The position numbers were made by a program, and so were the translations under genes. Shown here piece by piece: positions 1,152-32,020 of a DNA stretch of 32,020 nt (positions are counted from its first letter, which is position 1; the number at the start of each line of letters is the position of its first letter). This DNA comes from a virus, in the IMG/VR virus record IMGVR_UViG_3300025671_000281, positions 1-32,020 of that record; one strand, 5' to 3'. The notes under the pieces were generated by a model. The model did no database searches, had not been told where the DNA came from, and saw only the letters and a list, made by a program, of their open reading frames with translations.

Positions 1152-3631
1152 TGGCTAAGTCAAGATTCTTTCAAACCAGCCTAGTTAGTGGCGCTCTATC
1201 CCCTTTATTAAAAGGTCGGGTAGATATCGACCAATACTACCAAGGCGCAGAGGTTGCTAAGAACCTTGTTATCGTCCCACAGGGCGGCATGAAGCGTAGG
1301 GCTGGCACTCAGTATATAGACCAAGCGTTAAACGTCTTAGAGCGTCTTACAGGCACTATGACAATGCCTAACGGGGGCACACCTGGAGACATTGACGATG
1401 AAGATGACGCTACGTCTACGAGCACGACAACGAATATTAGTACGACAAACCCGTATATTGTGGCGCAAATGGATTTGGGCAGCGCAGAATATATTGAAGT
1501 GGTTGATGTTAGGGGCATACTACTTACGTCTGGTACATCTGATGAGTTTGATATCGAACACTCTGACGATGGGTCGGCTTGGACAAAGCTCGTTGATATC
1601 CCTTTGCTTGGGCCGAGCGCACAAGACTTCCGATTCAAGGCAGGAGTCACCAAAAGATACTGGCGAATCGTCAAAACAACCGCCACAGACTTAGGTACTG
1701 CTAAGGTCACATTATCTGACTTTAACCTATTTAATGAGTCTGCAACGGCATCTAACGTCAAGCTGTTAGACTTCTCCGTAGAATCTGATCGACATTATTT
1801 ATTGATCTTAACAGACAAGAACGTTCGGATTATTAGAACACCAGATACTTATGTAGCTGATGTTAAGATGGCAATGCAGTCTGCTGCCATTCCAGATGTT
1901 CGAGATACTCAGGTTGAGAACGTCATGCTGTTGTTTCAAGAGGACTACGCGCCTAGTCGATTAGTTAACTTAGGCACTGACTCCGATTGGTTCTTAGACC
2001 TTGCACCTTTCGTAAACGTCCCGCAGTTTGATTATAACGATGCCCTAAGCCCCACCCCCGTCAATGACGTACAAAGAATGACGCTAACGTCTTTTGTGGC
2101 TGGCGATACGTTTCAGGTGGACATTGAGGGCGTGTTATCTAAGAACATTACTTTTGCTGGTGACGCTAACGCAGATCAGAGAGAGTCAACTGTATTTAAC
2201 ATACAGAAGAACATTCAAGAAATGCCTGTTATGGGCGATACAGGCGTTAGTGTTTCCTATGTTTCTGCGGGTGTGTATGATATTACCGTAGGCGGTGAGT
2301 CAGCTAAAGACTTTGAGCTTTATTCGGGATTTGCGACCAGTGGAACGGCTAGTAAGACGGTTGGCTTTGTTAAGACTGCAAGCGGCTCACCAAGGAAAGA
2401 GGACGTATGGTCTGCTACTAGAGGCTGGCCTAAGACTGCGTGTTTCTATGAGAGTCGGCTAGTTATTGGCGGCACTAAGTCTAAGAGACAAAGCCTGTTT
2501 GCTAGTAAGACGGGTTCGTTCTTTGACTTTGATATTGATGATGGCGATGACGATGAAGGAATCTTTGCAACGATCTCGTCAAGAAAGCTGAATGACATTG
2601 TTGATGTATTCCCTGGCAGGACTTTGCAAATCTTTACTTCTGGCGCTGAGTTTGCGGTAACAGTTAAGCCATTAACACCAAGTACGGTAGCGATTACCCC
2701 ACAGACTTCACACGGTGCATCTAACATTGAAGTACAGGAAGTGGACGGTTCTACCCTATTTATCGACCGCAACGGCAAGACATTAAGAGACTTTATCTAC
2801 TCATTCAATGAGGATGCCTATACAACGCAGGATAAGTCCGTTCTAGCGTCTAACCTAATCAAGCAGCCTATTGGTCTAGCTTTGTTAACGGGTACTCAAA
2901 GTGAAGATTCTAACTGGCTATTCATCATTAACAGTGATGGCGGGGCGGCAATCCTAAATACTTTGCGCTCTCAGGATATTAACGGCTATACAGAATGGAC
3001 TACCAGTGGATCATTGAAGTCTGGCGCTGTTGTTGATGATGAATTCTATGTAGTTAATGAAAGAGAGATTGACGGCTCTACCGTATCGTATGTTGAGCGC
3101 TGGGATTTCTCTTATCTAATGGACTCGTCTATTAAAGTAAGCCCAACACCTACCCAAACAGTTATAACAGGTCTTAGCCATTTAGAGGGCGAGACCGTAC
3201 AGATTGTCGGTGATGGAATTGTGCTTAGTCCAAAAACCGTAGCGAGTGGTCAGATTGAATTAGACGCTAACGAGATCGGTTATTCTCAAATTGAATTGGG
3301 CTTAAACTTTGTACCAGAATTAGTACCAATGCCATTAAATACGAATATGGGTTCTGGGCAAAATGCGATGAGATTGAAGCGCATCATACGAGTGAATATG
3401 CGCGTCTATGAGACGTATGGCGTTCATGTGGACGGCAACCCTGTTCCGATCAGAACGTTTGGCTCTGCGCCAACCACGCCCTTAGATAGCGCCCCTACAG
3501 CATTAAGTGGCATAATAGCAGACGTATATGATGTTAATGGTTGGAATCGAGACGTTATGCCAACAATCAGTGTACCAGACCCAACGCCTTTCCATATCCA
3601 GGCGATTGAATACGAGGTGGAGTCAAGCTAA
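1151..3631 (+). CDS. Tail tubular protein B (T7 gp12-like nozzle) with an inserted discoidin-like domain
   Basis: At 826 aa it is close to T7 gp12 (about 794 aa), which forms the distal tail nozzle. The N-terminus has the family signature: an aromatic start followed by 'GALSPLLKGRVD', then 'NLVIVPQGGMKRRAGTQ' at residues 38-54. Nozzle-like segments resume at about 205 ('FSVESDRHYLLIL') and continue to the C-terminus. Between them are a low-complexity Asp/Thr/Ser linker (about 71-99) and a module at about 100-197 with the layout of an F5/8 type C (discoidin) domain: 'MDLGSAEYI', 'FDIEHSDDGSAW' and 'RYWRIVKT'. That module is an inference from pattern and would be expected to bind carbohydrate. 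ATG overlaps the previous stop (TGATG), and the stop overlaps the next start (TAATG). Confidence 0.9.
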   Translation: MAKSRFFQTSLVSGALSPLLKGRVDIDQYYQGAEVAKNLVIVPQGGMKRRAGTQYIDQALNVLERLTGTMTMPNGGTPGDIDDEDDATSTSTTTNISTTNPYIVAQMDLGSAEYIEVVDVRGILLTSGTSDEFDIEHSDDGSAWTKLVDIPLLGPSAQDFRFKAGVTKRYWRIVKTTATDLGTAKVTLSDFNLFNESATASNVKLLDFSVESDRHYLLILTDKNVRIIRTPDTYVADVKMAMQSAAIPDVRDTQVENVMLLFQEDYAPSRLVNLGTDSDWFLDLAPFVNVPQFDYNDALSPTPVNDVQRMTLTSFVAGDTFQVDIEGVLSKNITFAGDANADQRESTVFNIQKNIQEMPVMGDTGVSVSYVSAGVYDITVGGESAKDFELYSGFATSGTASKTVGFVKTASGSPRKEDVWSATRGWPKTACFYESRLVIGGTKSKRQSLFASKTGSFFDFDIDDGDDDEGIFATISSRKLNDIVDVFPGRTLQIFTSGAEFAVTVKPLTPSTVAITPQTSHGASNIEVQEVDGSTLFIDRNGKTLRDFIYSFNEDAYTTQDKSVLASNLIKQPIGLALLTGTQSEDSNWLFIINSDGGAAILNTLRSQDINGYTEWTTSGSLKSGAVVDDEFYVVNEREIDGSTVSYVERWDFSYLMDSSIKVSPTPTQTVITGLSHLEGETVQIVGDGIVLSPKTVASGQIELDANEIGYSQIELGLNFVPELVPMPLNTNMGSGQNAMRLKRIIRVNMRVYETYGVHVDGNPVPIRTFGSAPTTPLDSAPTALSGIIADVYDVNGWNRDVMPTISVPDPTPFHIQAIEYEVESS

Positions 3632-4080: not shown

Positions 4081-6459
4081 ATGGCAATTAAGAAAATAGA
4101 TTATTACGGTCGATTTGAGGCAACAGGCCCAGACTTTTCTACTGCCAAACGCTTTCAGGCACTTGCAGGTCTTGCCGATCAAGTTGGCGAAGCGGCTTCG
4201 CAGTTTGGGCAGGTTGCATTACAGGAGCGAGCAGATAAGGCGTCTAAGGCAGGTGCTTTAGCTGGTGCTAAAGTTGAGCGCGATGAAGAAGGAAATATCA
4301 TTGCGCCAGAGCTACAAGAAGATACTACTTATTACGGGCAAGCATTTAATGAGTCCGCAATTAATTCTTATAAGTCTGGCATTGCTTTAGATGCAAAGCG
4401 ACGGCTAGATGAGCTTGCTGTTGAGTTTAAAGATGATCCAGCGGCATACAAAGAAAAAGCAGATGCGTATCAAGTTGGCTTAATCAAAGGGCTTCCACCA
4501 GAAATACAGGCAGAAATACTGCCTCAGTTAGAGCAAGACATTTACTTTCGTGAAAGAGACTTAAAAAAGTCTTTTGTTGATCGCACTTTTCAGAAAAATT
4601 TAACTGATGTTCGGTCTGAGTTAGATTCGCTAGAGAATGAAATTCTTTATGCCGCTAGAAACAATGATACCGAGAAGCAACAGGCGCTAGAGGCTAGGCT
4701 ATACAAAAGAATAGAAGAAGTTGGGGCATTTGTTGATCCAGCGGAAGCTAAGACTCGCCTAGATAATTTGAGCAAGAATGTTGCAGAAGAAATTTATTTG
4801 GGTGAAATTGACCGAATAGTTTTTAATGAAGATGAGGCCTTAACAACAAGACTTGCTAAAGGTGAAAAGTTCCTATCTGATCTAAGGGAGCTAGATTTTT
4901 TTGAAGACTTAACTCCAGATGAAAAGCGCGCGTTAGAGCAAAAGATTGATGTTCGAGTTAATGATGTTCGTATAGCGGTTGCAAAAGAGGCATCTCAAAG
5001 AAGCTCTGAAATTGCGTTAGAAGTATCTAACCTAGAGATTGCGGCAGCAAACAACCTTCGACCAGGCGATGAAATTATCGCAGACGCTAACCGTTTATTT
5101 AAAAACGAAGATATTACTGGCGATGAAAGAACGTCTATCATTAATAGGGTTTACTCTAATCAAGGCAAAACGCTAGACAAGAATCGTCGAATACTAGATG
5201 TTTCCGATAGGATTAAGGGAGACTCTAGCGTTGTAGTTGAGCAAAAAGGTATTGATGAATACTACGAAGACATATTAGAGCCGCAGTTAGAAGGCGTAGA
5301 AAACAAGTCACTTGTGCAAGCTAATTACATTAGCGCTACACGTATGGTTCCAAGCAAAATTAAGAGGCAGGTAAACCAGTTTATATCGTCTGGAGACCCA
5401 GCATTAATTACTGAAGCAGCTATGCTTGTTGATCGGGTTGATGAAATTCCTGGAATGTTTGACGCAATGGTTCCTCCGTCGGCCAAAATCTTTGCCACTA
5501 ACATGGTTCGTTTAATGAGTGTTATGTCGCCAGAAAAGGCGTATGACCTTAGCAAGCAGTACCTTGGTGGCGAAATGGATCAAGCACGAATTAGCCAAAG
5601 ACAAGCTGAAATTAAAAAAGAAAAGTATCCAGAAAAATATAGCCAGTGGACAAAAGATATCGTGGGTGACGTTAGCCCTATATCTATGGGGCTGGCAGTC
5701 CAGCAGTATCAAACCGTGTTTGAAGCGTATTTTACAAATGGCGCAGATAAAGATACCGCTCAAGAGCAAGCCGAAAAATTCTTGAATACCAATTATTCTG
5801 ACTCTGCATTTGGGCCAATGATGTACCCGCCAGAGCAGTATTACGCTATTAGCGGTGACATTGAGTACATGAGAGAAGAAATAATAGCTGGCTTGTCTCA
5901 AGGCTCGGATATTTATGGGGACATTGACCCAGATAGCATCATGCTGTTAAGCGACGATGTAACTGCCAGAACTGCATCTGAAGGCAAGCCGATGTACAAA
6001 ATATCATTTATAGATGAGAATGGAATCATTCAAACTACTAATGAATATTTTATGCCAGATGTTGATGCGGCAAGACAAAGAAAGTTGGAAGAAGCTAGAG
6101 CAAGGATAGAGGAAAAAAGAGCCTTAACCCCTGCGCAACAAAAGCTAGAGCAATCTCGAATTGATAGAATTATTGAAGAAGAAACAGGCGTTAAACCAGA
6201 GCGCGTTCGAACCAAGGTAAAACCAGCATCTGAAATATACAAAGATGTTACCGTTTATGAAGACTATGCAGACCTAGTTGAAAGGGGTCTTGTTATGGCA
6301 ACAACGCCACAGCGTGCGGCATTAGGTCTTATTAGTCAGGTTGGCGAGGTGATATCGAAGAAAGGCAAGTCTCAGCGTGCCGCCCTTCAAGAGTCAACCG
6401 AAAAGAGACGCAAAGAAGAAGAAAGGTTAAGACGAAAAATTCGTGAGGAAAACCAATAA
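4081..6459 (+). CDS. Internal virion protein C-like (T7 gp15 analogue)
   Basis: At 792 aa it is near T7 gp15 (747 aa). It opens with 'YYGRFEATGPDFSTAKRF' and a helical, Ala/Gln/Glu-rich N-terminus, then 'YYGQAFNESAINSY' (about residues 82-95) followed by long charged helices. The last 100 residues are strongly Glu/Arg-rich and probably coiled coil. In T7, gp15 forms the periplasmic tube of the ejectosome. The start lies four bases after the preceding stop, and the stop overlaps the following ATG (TAATG), so the three internal proteins form one translational block. The sequence is otherwise unremarkable, with no enzymatic motif. Confidence 0.75.
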   Translation: MAIKKIDYYGRFEATGPDFSTAKRFQALAGLADQVGEAASQFGQVALQERADKASKAGALAGAKVERDEEGNIIAPELQEDTTYYGQAFNESAINSYKSGIALDAKRRLDELAVEFKDDPAAYKEKADAYQVGLIKGLPPEIQAEILPQLEQDIYFRERDLKKSFVDRTFQKNLTDVRSELDSLENEILYAARNNDTEKQQALEARLYKRIEEVGAFVDPAEAKTRLDNLSKNVAEEIYLGEIDRIVFNEDEALTTRLAKGEKFLSDLRELDFFEDLTPDEKRALEQKIDVRVNDVRIAVAKEASQRSSEIALEVSNLEIAAANNLRPGDEIIADANRLFKNEDITGDERTSIINRVYSNQGKTLDKNRRILDVSDRIKGDSSVVVEQKGIDEYYEDILEPQLEGVENKSLVQANYISATRMVPSKIKRQVNQFISSGDPALITEAAMLVDRVDEIPGMFDAMVPPSAKIFATNMVRLMSVMSPEKAYDLSKQYLGGEMDQARISQRQAEIKKEKYPEKYSQWTKDIVGDVSPISMGLAVQQYQTVFEAYFTNGADKDTAQEQAEKFLNTNYSDSAFGPMMYPPEQYYAISGDIEYMREEIIAGLSQGSDIYGDIDPDSIMLLSDDVTARTASEGKPMYKISFIDENGIIQTTNEYFMPDVDAARQRKLEEARARIEEKRALTPAQQKLEQSRIDRIIEEETGVKPERVRTKVKPASEIYKDVTVYEDYADLVERGLVMATTPQRAALGLISQVGEVISKKGKSQRAALQESTEKRRKEEERLRRKIREENQ

Positions 6460-16755: not shown

Positions 16756-16775
16756 AAAAGCCCACCGAAGCGGGC
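16755..16775 (-). terminator. Rho-independent-type terminator read on the minus strand
   Basis: Read on the minus strand this is a GCCCGC / GTGGGC stem (one A-C mismatch) closed by a TTCG tetraloop and followed by six Ts: a classical intrinsic terminator. The stem is at 16760-16765 and 16770-16775. On the plus strand the same hairpin is followed by AAGTTG, with no T-tract. It lies directly after the lysozyme stop codon, which is the end of the plus-strand late operon, but it is better built to stop leftward transcripts. It may still act weakly on + transcripts. Confidence 0.7.
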
Positions 16776-18795: not shown

Positions 18796-18987
18796 ATGGA
18801 CATAGGTCAAAGCATTAGAAAAGTAATCGAAGCTAGAGGATTAACCTATGAGCAGTTCGCTGGGCTGCTCGGGGTTTCCAGACAGAGAGCGCATACGATT
18901 GCTAAGTCGAAAGACTTAAAGCTTTCAACCATTAAGAAGGTTAGTGATGCGCTAGATATTAACATTGAGTATTTAATTCGGGCATAA
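18796..18987 (+). CDS. Cro/C1-type HTH transcriptional regulator, 63 aa
   Basis: This 63-residue protein is almost entirely an HTH_XRE domain: 'LTYEQFAGLLGVSRQRAHTI' followed by a second helix pair ending 'ALDINIEYLI'. The size fits a Cro-like dimer with no C-terminal cleavage or oligomerisation domain. It is the last gene of the recombination cluster and is followed by a G/C hairpin. The inverted repeat ATCTGTT-N10-AACAGAT at the early promoter is a plausible operator, suggesting negative feedback (inference). A GGGG stretch at 18786-18789 precedes the ATG. Confidence 0.85.
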   Translation: MDIGQSIRKVIEARGLTYEQFAGLLGVSRQRAHTIAKSKDLKLSTIKKVSDALDINIEYLIRA

Positions 18988-19014
18988 AAAAACCCCCCTG
19001 GAGGGAGGGGGGTT
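18986..19014 (-). terminator. Rho-independent-type terminator read on the minus strand
   Basis: AACCCCCC (18991-18998) and GGGGGGTT (19007-19014) form a perfect 8-bp stem with an 8-base loop. On the minus strand it is followed by further Ts (complement of the A run at 18986-18990), giving a textbook intrinsic terminator for leftward transcripts. On the plus strand it is followed by GCACGG without a T-tract. The same orientation is seen for the hairpin at 16760. Confidence 0.65.
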
Positions 19015-19353
19015 GCACGGGGAGTGCGGAGGAAGTATCATTGAAGTGCGAAGTCAATGATGGATAAAGTTTAACAGAGTGCCAAACCAAATCCAACATT
19101 CAATTCGCAGAGACTAACGGGCGTTAGGCTGGGGAACCGAAGAACCCCAGAGCGGAGTTGACCCTCTCCATGATGCGCCCCTGAATGCCGAGAGCAGGTA
19201 GTCAGGATAGATGTCAAGATTCGATACGTTAGTCAAAGCTCGTCATTACTAATTAACTTATTTTTTGTGCGTAAGCACATTAAAAGGGTAAGTGTGGATG
19301 GATATTTAAGAAAGAATTGTTAAGTCTATTAAAAACTACTGGAGGGTAGCGAA
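18988..19353 (+). other. 366-bp non-coding region with several hairpins
   Basis: No convincing gene lies between the HTH regulator and the secreted protein. The region holds, in order: the reversed terminator; a hairpin TCATTGA / TCAATGA (19038-19044 and 19054-19060); the structured segment 19112-19234; an A/T-rich stretch (19246-19266); a small hairpin TGTGC-GTAA-GCACA (19266-19279); and the leader of the next gene with its hairpin ribosome-binding site. It could be a replication origin, a non-coding RNA gene, or a long regulatory leader. No promoter of good quality was found for the downstream gene. Confidence 0.6.
19112..19234 (+). ncRNA. Candidate structured RNA of about 123 nt (unknown family)
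   Basis: GACTAACG (19112-19119) can pair perfectly with CGTTAGTC (19227-19234), closing a domain. Inside are CTGGGG/CCCCAG (19129-19134 with 19145-19150, loop AACCGAAGAA), GGAG/CTCC (19154-19157 with 19166-19169), GGCG/CGCC (19120-19123 with 19176-19179) and CCTG/CAGG (19180-19183 with 19195-19198). A second CGTTAG at 19122-19127 can also pair with the 5' strand of the closing stem, giving a mutually exclusive hairpin. The strand is not proven; + is assumed because the surrounding genes are +. No known RNA family was recognised. Confidence 0.4.
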
Positions 19354-19356
19354 ATG
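19336..19356 (+). promoter_or_regulatory. Ribosome-binding site displayed in a hairpin loop (copy 1)
   Basis: CTAC (19336-19339) pairs with GTAG (19346-19349) around the loop TGGAGG, which carries the Shine-Dalgarno sequence. The ATG of the secreted protein follows at 19354. The same 'ACTGGAGGG-AG' leader occurs before two leftward genes (24402 and 24630), where the stems are longer. It probably keeps the ribosome-binding site exposed. Confidence 0.5.
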
Positions 19357-19830: not shown

Positions 19831-20129
19831 GTGACATAGATTTATTAAAAATAGTCCACAATAAGTTTCAGCAGGGCGATAGTTTTTATTGGTCTTTGGA
19901 ACCTAAAGAGCAAGACTATCTCGACACAAATGAGTTTATTTTTTGTTTAGAGGGTGTGATTGAAACTTTGATTTTTAACGCTTTCAAAAATCCAGATGAG
20001 GCGTATCAGATTTTGCGGGTATGGCCTTATGATACAGACGGCTATTGCGAACTAGGTGGCAAGGATTACTGGTTCAAAGACATAGACGAGGCTTGCGATA
20101 TCTTGATGTCGGAAAGGGGCTGGTCATGA
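19827..20129 (+). CDS. Hypothetical acidic protein, 100 aa
   Basis: This 100-aa acidic, aromatic-rich protein ('GDSFYWSLEPKEQDYLDTNE', 'YQILRVWPYDTDGY', 'KDYWFKDIDEACDILM') is not recognised. It is a real gene by its compact packing: ATGA overlap with the winged-helix gene at the start and a 4-base overlap with the replication-related gene at the end. No membrane segment or metal-binding motif was seen. Confidence 0.65.
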   Translation: MSDIDLLKIVHNKFQQGDSFYWSLEPKEQDYLDTNEFIFCLEGVIETLIFNAFKNPDEAYQILRVWPYDTDGYCELGGKDYWFKDIDEACDILMSERGWS

Positions 20130-20500
20130 TTCTAAACACGGGAGAGGTGTGGCAAGCAGATGACTCAGACATTATACAATGGCAAAAGACCTACCCTGCC
20201 GTTGATGTATTCGCGGAGTTGGCGAAGATGGAGAGTTGGCTCGATGCTAACCCATCGAAACGTAAGACCTCAAAGGGTATTAAGCGGTTTGTTAACTCAT
20301 GGTTATCACGGGCGCAGGATAAAGGCGGCAGTAGTCCAATAAAAATAGATGGCCCCAAGCCATGGGGAGATGGCCCAAAGACCATAAGGCAAAGATCGAA
20401 CCTTGATGACCTAACTGACATAACCTGGCTGGAGGGTTCGGAAAAGGAACACATGAGAGTTTACTTTACTGATAAATATGGGCAGGCGTTCGATGGCTAA
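20126..20500 (+). CDS. Replication protein C-terminal-domain homologue, 124 aa
   Basis: The frame is open from 20045, but the ATG at 20126 overlaps the preceding stop (ATGA) and follows GGAAAGGGG, so it is taken as the start. The pattern 'QWQKTYPAVDVFAELAKMES' with 'WLDANPSKRKTSKGIKRFVN' and 'SWLSRAQDKGG' (about residues 18-67) is one I know as the C-terminal part of phage O-type replication initiators and related proteins. The usual N-terminal winged-helix half is missing here but two separate winged-helix proteins (19639 and 20493) flank it. A helicase-loader-like role is possible. Confidence 0.6.
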   Translation: MILNTGEVWQADDSDIIQWQKTYPAVDVFAELAKMESWLDANPSKRKTSKGIKRFVNSWLSRAQDKGGSSPIKIDGPKPWGDGPKTIRQRSNLDDLTDITWLEGSEKEHMRVYFTDKYGQAFDG

Positions 20501-29073: not shown

Positions 29074-29384
29074 CCGAGACTAAGAGAAAGCCGAGGGCTG
29101 TTCAGCCTAAATACACTTTGATCTGCGATGAGAAAGATTGGTTGATATCGTCAAAGTTCAAGTTTGAATGGCTAGATAAGATTGCAGAGCAGTACAAGTT
29201 CGATAAGTTCCAATATATCCACAAGTTTCGTGCGTTTCGCTGTTATCAAGGCGATAAGCATTTAGATTGGATCGACGTTAACGATTTGGCTTTATTGAAT
29301 GGTGAGCGTCGAATCATGGAAATCCTGTTGAAACACCAGCAGGTCAGTCCGAAAAGGGCTGTTATTCAATATCCTTGGAGATAG
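29070..29384 (+). CDS. Hypothetical protein, 104 aa
   Basis: This 104-aa basic protein starts after GGAGG (29061-29065) with ATGA overlap. It contains 'YTLICDEKDWLISSKFKFEW' and 'KFQYIHKFRAFRCYQGDKHL', a Trp- and Tyr-rich mixed alpha/beta composition. Not recognised. It lies between the Bbp19-like and scaffold genes, so a head-assembly role is a contextual guess. Confidence 0.6.
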   Translation: MTETKRKPRAVQPKYTLICDEKDWLISSKFKFEWLDKIAEQYKFDKFQYIHKFRAFRCYQGDKHLDWIDVNDLALLNGERRIMEILLKHQQVSPKRAVIQYPWR

Positions 29385-29388
29385 AGTT

Positions 29389-30129
29389 ATGGAAGATCAG
29401 GCCGTCATAGACGATACCCTGCAAGGCGGGGAGTCTTTGTTAGATGAATCAAGCCCTACGTTGTCAGAGGGTGAATACTTTTTAACTGAAGGCATTAAAG
29501 GCTCAGGGGAAACCCCAGAGTGGTTTAAGGCTGACAAATATAAATCAATAGCAGACCAAGCCAAGGCGTATACAGAGCTAGAGAAGCGCTTTGGTGGCTT
29601 TAAAGGTGCGCCTAAAGAGGGTTACTCTATACCCGAGGGCGTAGAGGATGGCGACGAGCTACTCTCTGAGCTAAAGACGTTTGCTGAAGAAACCAATATG
29701 TCACAAGACGCATTTAATCGTGCGTGGGATTTGTTGGTTGCACAGTCACAAGCGGTCGAGGAAGTTTCTGTAGAAACCGAACTGGCTAAACTTGGCGACA
29801 ATGGACAGCAGCGCATTAAGACTGTTGAGCAGTTCATGAAGAATAACCTAGACCCAGAGACCTATGAGCGCGTTCGGTACGGTGTAAACAGCGCTGAGGC
29901 GGTTGAATTGGTTGAGGCTCTGATTGGCGCTACTGCTCCCGCTAAACTGCCGATTGATGGCGTAGTTGAGCCAGGCGGTATCACATGGGAAGCAATCGAA
30001 GCTGAAATGTACAAGAAAGATCAGAACGGAAACCTACTTCGTTCGGTTGATCGGAACCATGAAGCTAAGATTCAACGCATGATGAAAGAGTTTGGTGGAG
30101 ATCGTCCTTATACACAAACGTTTGGTTAA
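29389..30129 (+). CDS. Scaffolding protein (T7 gp9-like)
   Basis: This 246-aa, strongly acidic, helical protein is placed directly before the capsid gene. The pattern 'PEWFKADKYKSIADQAKAYT', then 'ELEKRFGGFKGAPKEGYSIP' is the typical start of T7-like and Caudovirales scaffolds, followed by a helical middle ('ETNMSQDAFNRAWDLLVAQS') and an ending with a basic helix, 'DRNHEAKIQRMMKEFGG', which in this family interacts with the capsid. It shapes the prohead and is then removed. Confidence 0.88.
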   Translation: MEDQAVIDDTLQGGESLLDESSPTLSEGEYFLTEGIKGSGETPEWFKADKYKSIADQAKAYTELEKRFGGFKGAPKEGYSIPEGVEDGDELLSELKTFAEETNMSQDAFNRAWDLLVAQSQAVEEVSVETELAKLGDNGQQRIKTVEQFMKNNLDPETYERVRYGVNSAEAVELVEALIGATAPAKLPIDGVVEPGGITWEAIEAEMYKKDQNGNLLRSVDRNHEAKIQRMMKEFGGDRPYTQTFG

Positions 30130-31431: not shown

Positions 31432-31989
31432 ATGGCTTCTAAGATAGACCTAATTAGTAATGCTCTCATTCTAATTGGAGACACTCCTATTAACTCCCTT
31501 ACTGGTGGCACTCGCGCGCAACAAGTGGCATCGAACCTGTACGACAATATCGTGCAGAATGAATTGACTAAACATCGTTGGGGCTTTGCCAAGAAAAAGG
31601 CGCAGTTATCCCTAACAACTGAAACCCCAGTGGACGATGAGTGGCGCAGCATATATCAATTACCTACTGATATGCTTTTTCTTATCAAGCTGTACCCCAA
31701 TACAAGTTATCAACTGTACGGTGACAAGGTTTACACGGACACTTCAAGTGCTTTGTACGCTGATTACATATACAACGCACCAGAGTCTGAATGGCCTGTA
31801 TACTTCTCTAAGATGATTGAGTATGCCCTAGCTAGGGACTTTGCCGCATCTATCCGAGACAGCGATTCAGCGCGTCAGACAATGACTAACGAGTACATTA
31901 ATCAGTCACGCATGGCTCGATACACTGACTCACAACAATATCCACAGGTTCCGATTACGTCTAACCCGTTCACTAATGTGAGGTTCTGA
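31432..31989 (+). CDS. Tail tubular protein A (T7 gp11-like), complete
   Basis: At 185 aa it is close to T7 gp11 (196 aa). The N-terminus 'IDLISNALILIGDTPINSLT' is the family signature, followed by 'VASNLYDNIVQNELTKHRWG' and 'WRSIYQLPTDMLFLIKLY', the usual helix-strand core. It forms the adaptor ring under the portal. It starts after AAAGGTGAG (31421-31429) with ATG 31432. Positions 31492-31989 duplicate 1-498 with 11 silent differences, giving the same protein. Confidence 0.9.
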   Translation: MASKIDLISNALILIGDTPINSLTGGTRAQQVASNLYDNIVQNELTKHRWGFAKKKAQLSLTTETPVDDEWRSIYQLPTDMLFLIKLYPNTSYQLYGDKVYTDTSSALYADYIYNAPESEWPVYFSKMIEYALARDFAASIRDSDSARQTMTNEYINQSRMARYTDSQQYPQVPITSNPFTNVRF

Positions 31990-32020
31990 TGTTTGATAAC
32001 GAGAGCTTTTCCCACGTTGG
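31492..32020. repeat. Terminal direct repeat, right copy (circular-genome overlap)
   Basis: Second copy of window bases 1-529, ungapped, with 11 substitutions and no amino-acid change in tail tubular A. It shows that the sequence closes into a circle of about 31,491 bp. Confidence 0.95.
31989..32020 (+). CDS. Start of the 217-aa structural protein, cut by the window end
   Basis: The first ten codons and two bases of the gene that is complete at 498-1151, coupled to tail tubular A by TGATG. It is identical over this stretch to the left copy. Confidence 0.9.
   Translation, partial: MFDNESFSHV

Follow-up and report, generated by a model that had tools for sequence, protein, structure and literature searches.

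The 32,020-nucleotide (nt) stretch analysed here, positions 1 to 32,020 of the IMG/VR virus record IMGVR_UViG_3300025671_000281 (hereafter the window, or G000), contains a 366-bp gap at 18988–19353, bounded by the stop codon of a helix-turn-helix (HTH) gene (18987) and an ATG at 19354. This gap encodes a real structured RNA, a conclusion we regard as practically certain and an RNA we will call type A. Relatives have been found in more than 100 uncultured phage contigs, and it is well supported that they form an uncatalogued conserved RNA family. The best overall explanation, which we hold tentatively and with slightly less than even confidence, is that the type-A RNA has its own promoter and serves in cis as the leader of an operon, with the host RNA polymerase as a possible target. 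A first-pass annotation of the window had picked out the gap as the longest of the genome and suggested a small RNA, a cis-regulatory element or the replication origin. The remaining gaps are indeed no longer than ~160 bp, and the first two suggestions are supported by strong covariation, the predicted promoter of the RNA and its leader position.

Evidence for a conserved structured RNA

The + strand of 19108–19238 folds with a predicted energy of −45.3 kcal/mol (z −3.5), better than 200 of 200 dinucleotide shuffles, and the − strand of the same stretch shows no unusual folding against such shuffles (z −0.8). Relatives were gathered by BLAST on phage contigs fetched via neighbouring proteins, followed by a motif search and a covariance model. 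They fall into three subgroups: subgroup 1, to which the window belongs, subgroup 2, and a third with the loop GUGACCCC, which was found by the covariance model. The 8-bp closing stem that had been noted at the outset, GACTAACG (19112–19119) with CGTTAGTC (19227–19234), is present exactly. The compensatory changes that had been named as support for an RNA also occur, since seven of its eight pairs have changed on both sides and all pairs are standard in 27 subgroup-1 sequences. This covariation contradicts the possibility, raised in the same annotation, that the pairing might not be conserved in relatives.

Over the whole structure, 96.4% of the cells are paired in subgroup 1 (27 sequences), with double-sided changes in 22 of 46 pairs, and 93.5% in subgroup 2 (45 sequences), with double-sided changes in 37 of 57 pairs. 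When the partners are slid by 1–3 columns, pairing is 30–49% and double changes are seen in at most 17 pairs of subgroup 2 and at most 3 of subgroup 1. These counts were taken from MAFFT alignments made without fitting to the structure. The structures themselves were derived by visual inspection of aligned members; in cells paired this gives them an advantage over the slid versions, which is too small to account for the compensatory changes. A chance structure or the remnant of a coding sequence is thus barely credible: the covariation exceeds that of shuffles and slides, insertions and deletions in the relatives do not come in threes, the core holds no open reading frame of at least 60 amino acids, and nothing was found in favour of such a reading.

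A covariance model built from subgroup 2 only (R1) finds the core in the window with 71 bits (E 6e-19), matches the third subgroup with E 1e-21 to 3e-30, and matches 61 of 66 further loci. Of the two covariance searches that had been suggested as checks, the one with a model from relatives therefore finds the window, and the one against Rfam gives no match. In Rfam 15 (4227 families), neither the window nor the relatives have a match at the gathering threshold, and a relaxed threshold returns sub-threshold, chance-level matches only. A tRNA or tmRNA was considered and rejected, as ARAGORN and Rfam detect none.

Architecture of the type-A RNA

The coordinates of the stems, of the two pseudoknots and of the neighbouring features are given in Table 1. 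In the 5′ segment, complementarity of at least 5 nt is found in 22 of 22 long-type loci, compared with 48% of shuffles, and the 5′ end of the RNA appears to be paired in the short and long types alike. The loop of P4 is nearly invariant, which is partly an effect of ascertainment because the pattern scan demanded UUGACCCU; the third subgroup and one further locus (L091) vary there.

Pseudoknot A is strongly supported by comparison of the subgroups. In subgroup 2 it occurs as CGGU/ACCG, CAGU/ACUG and CAGC/GCUG, is 100% paired and is equalled in 0 of 500 shuffles, and in the third subgroup it is replaced by GACU/AGUC. Pseudoknot B is moderately supported; it is invariant in most relatives, and the single compensatory case is L091, in which the loop AUACCU would pair with AAGGUGA.

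The first-pass annotation had also proposed a switch in which a second CGTTAG competes for the same strand. The motif exists (19123–19128), but the rival hairpin lacks covariation, as its score is reached by 223 of 500 shuffles, and 20 of 27 sequences lack its central pair, so that this idea is not upheld.

Table 1. Coordinates of the type-A RNA, its neighbouring features and the type-B loci (window positions unless a contig is named)
Feature	Position	Strand	Evidence or remark
Cro/CI-type HTH gene	18796–18987	+	Pfam HTH_3 E 5.7e-8; last gene of the ERF-YqaJ-SSB-HTH operon, directly upstream of the gap
A-tract and G/C hairpin	18988–19014		Terminator-like on the − strand only; right arm overlaps the −35 box
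Predicted sigma70-like promoter	19013–19041	+	TTGCAC (19013–19018), 17 nt, TATCAT (19036–19041); predicted start ~19048
5′ segment	19047–19109	+	TGCGAA (19047–19052) can pair with TTCGCA (19104–19109) just 5′ of P1
Core of the structured RNA, ~185 nt	19109–19293	+	Match of covariance model R1; covariation
P1 closing stem	19112–19234	+	19112–19119/19227–19234; 100% paired, 7/8 pairs compensatory
P2 stem, encloses P3 and P4	19120–19179	+	19120–19124/19175–19179; 98.5% paired, little variation
P3 hairpin	19129–19150	+	19129–19134/19145–19150; 4/6 pairs covary
P4 hairpin	19154–19169	+	Loop UUGACCCU (19158–19165); stem covaries
P5 hairpin	19180–19206	+	19180–19184/19202–19206 and 19187–19189/19197–19199; 5/8 pairs covary
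P6 short stem	19210–19222	+	19210–19211/19221–19222; subgroup 2 covariation AU, GC, UA
P8 hairpin	19267–19278	+	Just 5′ of AAAAGGG; 3/4 pairs covary
Pseudoknot A	19192–19241	+	P5 loop GAGC (19192–19195) with GCUC (19238–19241), strand after P1
Pseudoknot B	19161–19289	+	P4 loop ACCCU (19161–19165) with AGGGU (19285–19289), 3′ AAAGGG(U)
First downstream gene, 93 aa	19354–19635	+	No known family; differs between relatives
C2, conserved gene further downstream	20120–20500	+	phrog_1032 E 0.016; in 129/129 type-A loci spanning the region
Type B	L168:2185–2490, L085:4121–4420, L096:4144–4446		~26 more loci

Predicted promoter and continuity with the downstream operon

In the long-type loci (22 non-redundant, the window included), the −10 element of the predicted promoter stands at a constant offset with a mean score of 6.4, the next best being 0.3. 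In the short-type loci of subgroup 2 (29 non-redundant), it lies exactly 12 nt 5′ of P1 with a mean score of 4.3 and a shuffled maximum of −1.7. The long-type promoters are further upstream of P1 than the short-type ones, and their spacing is equally fixed. Promoter and terminator consensus counts over the whole window are not above shuffles, and for this reason only the position-specific statistics over relatives have been used. They predict that the RNA is transcribed from its own promoter, with a start at the 5′ edge of the fold.

At the other end, 84 loci carry one copy of the hairpin GGCGAGGCUUGCCGAGCC (tandem GA, CUUG loop) directly 5′ of AGGAG and a start codon. This hairpin is placed ~185–215 nt after the P4 loop, precedes different genes, and has the compensated variants GGU..ACC and GAC..GUC. 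The linker between the RNA and this hairpin and Shine-Dalgarno (SD) module is 84% AT; none of 50 non-redundant linkers holds a terminator-like hairpin, and a consistent internal promoter is likewise lacking in them. Because the linker has neither terminator nor promoter and the hairpin-SD module continues it, the type-A RNA of the main clades is, judged from sequence, the 5′ leader of the next operon after the recombination genes ERF-YqaJ-SSB-HTH.

Distribution and genomic context

The homologues found by BLAST occupy the same genomic place as the RNA of the window, and most relatives have the HTH gene as their neighbour on the upstream side. The first downstream gene, by comparison, falls into 13 clusters plus singletons over 118 loci. 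Beyond it lie C2, then NinB-like, exonuclease and NinG-like genes. C2 weakly resembles the C-terminus of phage replication-initiation proteins in its profile match. In three contigs (L009, L088 and L214), the HTH gene is directly followed by the next core gene, NinB or exonuclease, and both the type-A RNA and C2 are missing. The RNA is single-copy per genome; two matches near opposite contig ends of G014 are read as the terminal overlap of that genome. A pattern scan of GTDB returned four contigs with one real copy, on a 5.8-kb contig of a metagenome-assembled genome (L363) that is probably phage.

One genome, G005, carries the type-A RNA together with unrelated terminase, portal and virion genes, including the tape measure protein; the RNA therefore travels with the early module and not with the packaging motor. 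A packaging RNA of the phi29 pRNA type was rejected, as it needs a single packaging motor and the terminase and portal of G005 are unrelated.

The window is read as an essentially complete phage genome of ~31.5 kb, circular or terminally redundant, because its first 529 bases recur at its end (1–529 and 31492–32020, 529 bp, 98% identity). The record is classed as ‘linear’ despite this overlap. The genome encodes a T7-like connector, capsid, tail tube and terminase, and an early region with ERF, YqaJ exonuclease, SSB and HTH. Neither a DnaB-type helicase (DnaB_C) nor a family A DNA polymerase (DNA_pol_A) was found in the window and G001–G009. The type-A RNA stands at a fixed control point of phages without recognisable DNA polymerase or replicative helicase.

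Type B, a second, putative RNA in the same position

Two close relatives of the window, L168 and L085, share its sequence up to ~19076, the promoter region included, and then continue with a different conserved noncoding sequence of ~300 nt, which we will call type B. None of the fetched loci has both types, and type B has no match in Rfam. Pairing is possible between its invariant GACCUUUAGAGG and a 3′ CCUCUAAA; the structure was obtained by inspection of the consensus fold only, without controls. At its 3′ end, type B adjoins the ribosome-binding site of the gene that follows. A helicase and a primase-like gene come immediately after type B in L158; in L089 they also lie downstream of it, separated by one gene. 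By these comparisons, type B is unrelated to type A and replaces it in related phages, and its own structure is a predicted one.

Proposed mechanism and alternatives

We give an even chance to the reading in which the type-A RNA acts as a cis-acting leader. It is based on the promoter at the 5′ edge of the fold, the continuity of the operon, the variable cargo, and the absence of the RNA where there is no separate operon. Transcription would start at the sigma70-like promoter, and the RNA would act in cis regardless of which gene stands first in the operon. The likeliest single route would be for the nascent RNA to bind the host RNA polymerase by which it is transcribed, thereby keeping the polymerase elongating through the operon, as proposed by analogy with the put RNA of phage HK022, an RNA of ~70 nt with two stem-loops that mediates processive antitermination (PMC9378689). 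Put is placed downstream of an early promoter in the operon which it serves, and by binding RNA polymerase it suppresses both intrinsic and Rho termination. Antitermination at the polymerase, taken by itself, is doubtful; other cis routes could be the shielding or boosting of the mRNA, or the sensing of a ligand.

Like put, type A is a phage RNA that lies at or soon after a (predicted) promoter, heads an operon and would need no recognisable phage protein partner. Unlike put, it measures ~185–245 nt and has a multi-branch P1 domain and two pseudoknots, and antitermination would be a putative function here. Type A may work in the manner of put, but falls outside the put class, because the two-stem architecture of ~70 nt was looked for and is not present.

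Several observations weigh against the leader reading or its antitermination form. The fold is far larger than that of put. The intrinsic terminators on the + strand of the window show no excess over shuffles that an antiterminator would have to overcome. The hairpin-SD module is missing from the subgroup of the window. A further point is a small clade (L242, L276, L296, L348, L369–L373, L381 and L434) that carries the RNA on the opposite strand, close to its terminase genes. Three members were inspected (L242, L276 and L296): all have the RNA in antisense orientation between TerS and TerL, and the copies of L276 and L296 have T-rich tracts after them, with no obvious operon.

Since one clade has the RNA alone and antisense between terminase genes, the main rival of the cis-acting leader is an independent noncoding RNA that acts in trans, for example on the host RNA polymerase, the ribosome, a nuclease or a defence protein, with the downstream genes merely sharing its promoter. 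This is a possibility to be taken seriously, if on the unlikely side. The stand-alone copies of the L276/L296 clade have their own TATAAT promoter in addition to the T-rich tracts, and L296 shows short direct repeats downstream. The presence of the RNA in G005 beside unrelated virion genes, its single copy per genome, a predicted start site tuned to the fold, and the ability of an unrelated RNA (type B, predicted to be structured) to take its slot would also fit a trans-acting RNA. On the other hand, the main clades have no terminator between the RNA and the next gene, and in subgroup 2 the constant hairpin-SD module is held at a constant distance.

A leader of the riboswitch type, which would gate the operon in response to a metabolite or ion, is improbable. 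Its invariant junction nucleotides, the pseudoknots and the subgroup-2 hairpin adjoining the SD sequence would suit such a sensor, but the changing first gene gives no functionally coherent set of downstream genes, the alternative CGTTAG pairing is not conserved, and Rfam offers no match.

We judge a replication origin transcript or primer of the R-loop type to be quite improbable, and the origin suggested in the first-pass annotation is disfavoured. The absence of DnaB_C and DNA_pol_A from the phages scanned, the weak likeness of C2 to replication-initiation proteins, and the position of type B upstream of the helicase and primase-like genes of L158 and L089 speak for it. Against it, the GC skew does not change sign at the site, being positive to either side of it; negative windows occur at the genome ends and at ~24–24.5 kb only, and the window region holds no iterons. 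G022, of the same clade as L276 and L296, encodes a full replication-initiation protein ~8 kb from the RNA, and the related phages G020 and G021 have no type-A RNA and likewise no recognisable helicase.

Relation to known RNAs

The kind of evidence that defines type A, covariation, is the same as for the families of Rfam 15, none of which matches it. The eps-associated RNA (EAR) of Bacillus is a cis RNA element inside a long operon (PMC7858274). Both are cis elements, type A putatively so, and type A differs in being promoter-proximal, in occurring in phages and in preceding variable genes. GOLLD and ROOL are much larger than type A. They are large, ornate, conserved RNAs of bacteria or linked to phages, with unknown function (PMC12286853), and cmscan gives no match to either in the loci tested. 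BLAST searches of cultured phages, with the gap region and with subgroup relatives as queries, returned nothing relevant by DNA similarity. The type-A RNA was not found in the open literature that was searched either, closed sources, for example lists of small RNAs from marine metatranscriptomes, lying outside that search.

It is conceivable, though rather unlikely, that types A and B, both highly structured but unrelated, are members of a class of large regulators that consist of RNA only, act on transcription or host machinery and can replace one another in the slot behind the recombination operon; put would then be a distant and small analogue of this class. A control element made of RNA only, whose slot a second and unrelated RNA can take, would be informative on how long operons are run in such small phages by means of host machinery. 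For structural work, type A would also provide a large RNA fold that is new.

Additional observations

Three contigs nearly identical to the window (L002, L003 and L005) end at 18.0–18.4 kb, just 5′ of the gap region. Terminator-like hairpins for − strand transcripts lie at the ends of + strand genes of the window (16760–16775 and 18991–19014). An antisense RNA linked to the − strand terminator at 19014–18991 was considered and set aside, given just a weak promoter match and the unremarkable folding of the − strand core.

In G021 (5640–6048) and G020 (29236–29466), which are without type A, a conserved AT-rich region with AATGATCAATC repeats is located upstream of the terminase small subunit gene. 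The intergenic region 3056–3459 of the Methylophilales phage MEP301 (L367) does not match the type-A covariance model. It has a very stable predicted folding (z −6.0), and parts of it are 78–85% conserved among unrelated Methylophilales phages, including those of 141 kb.
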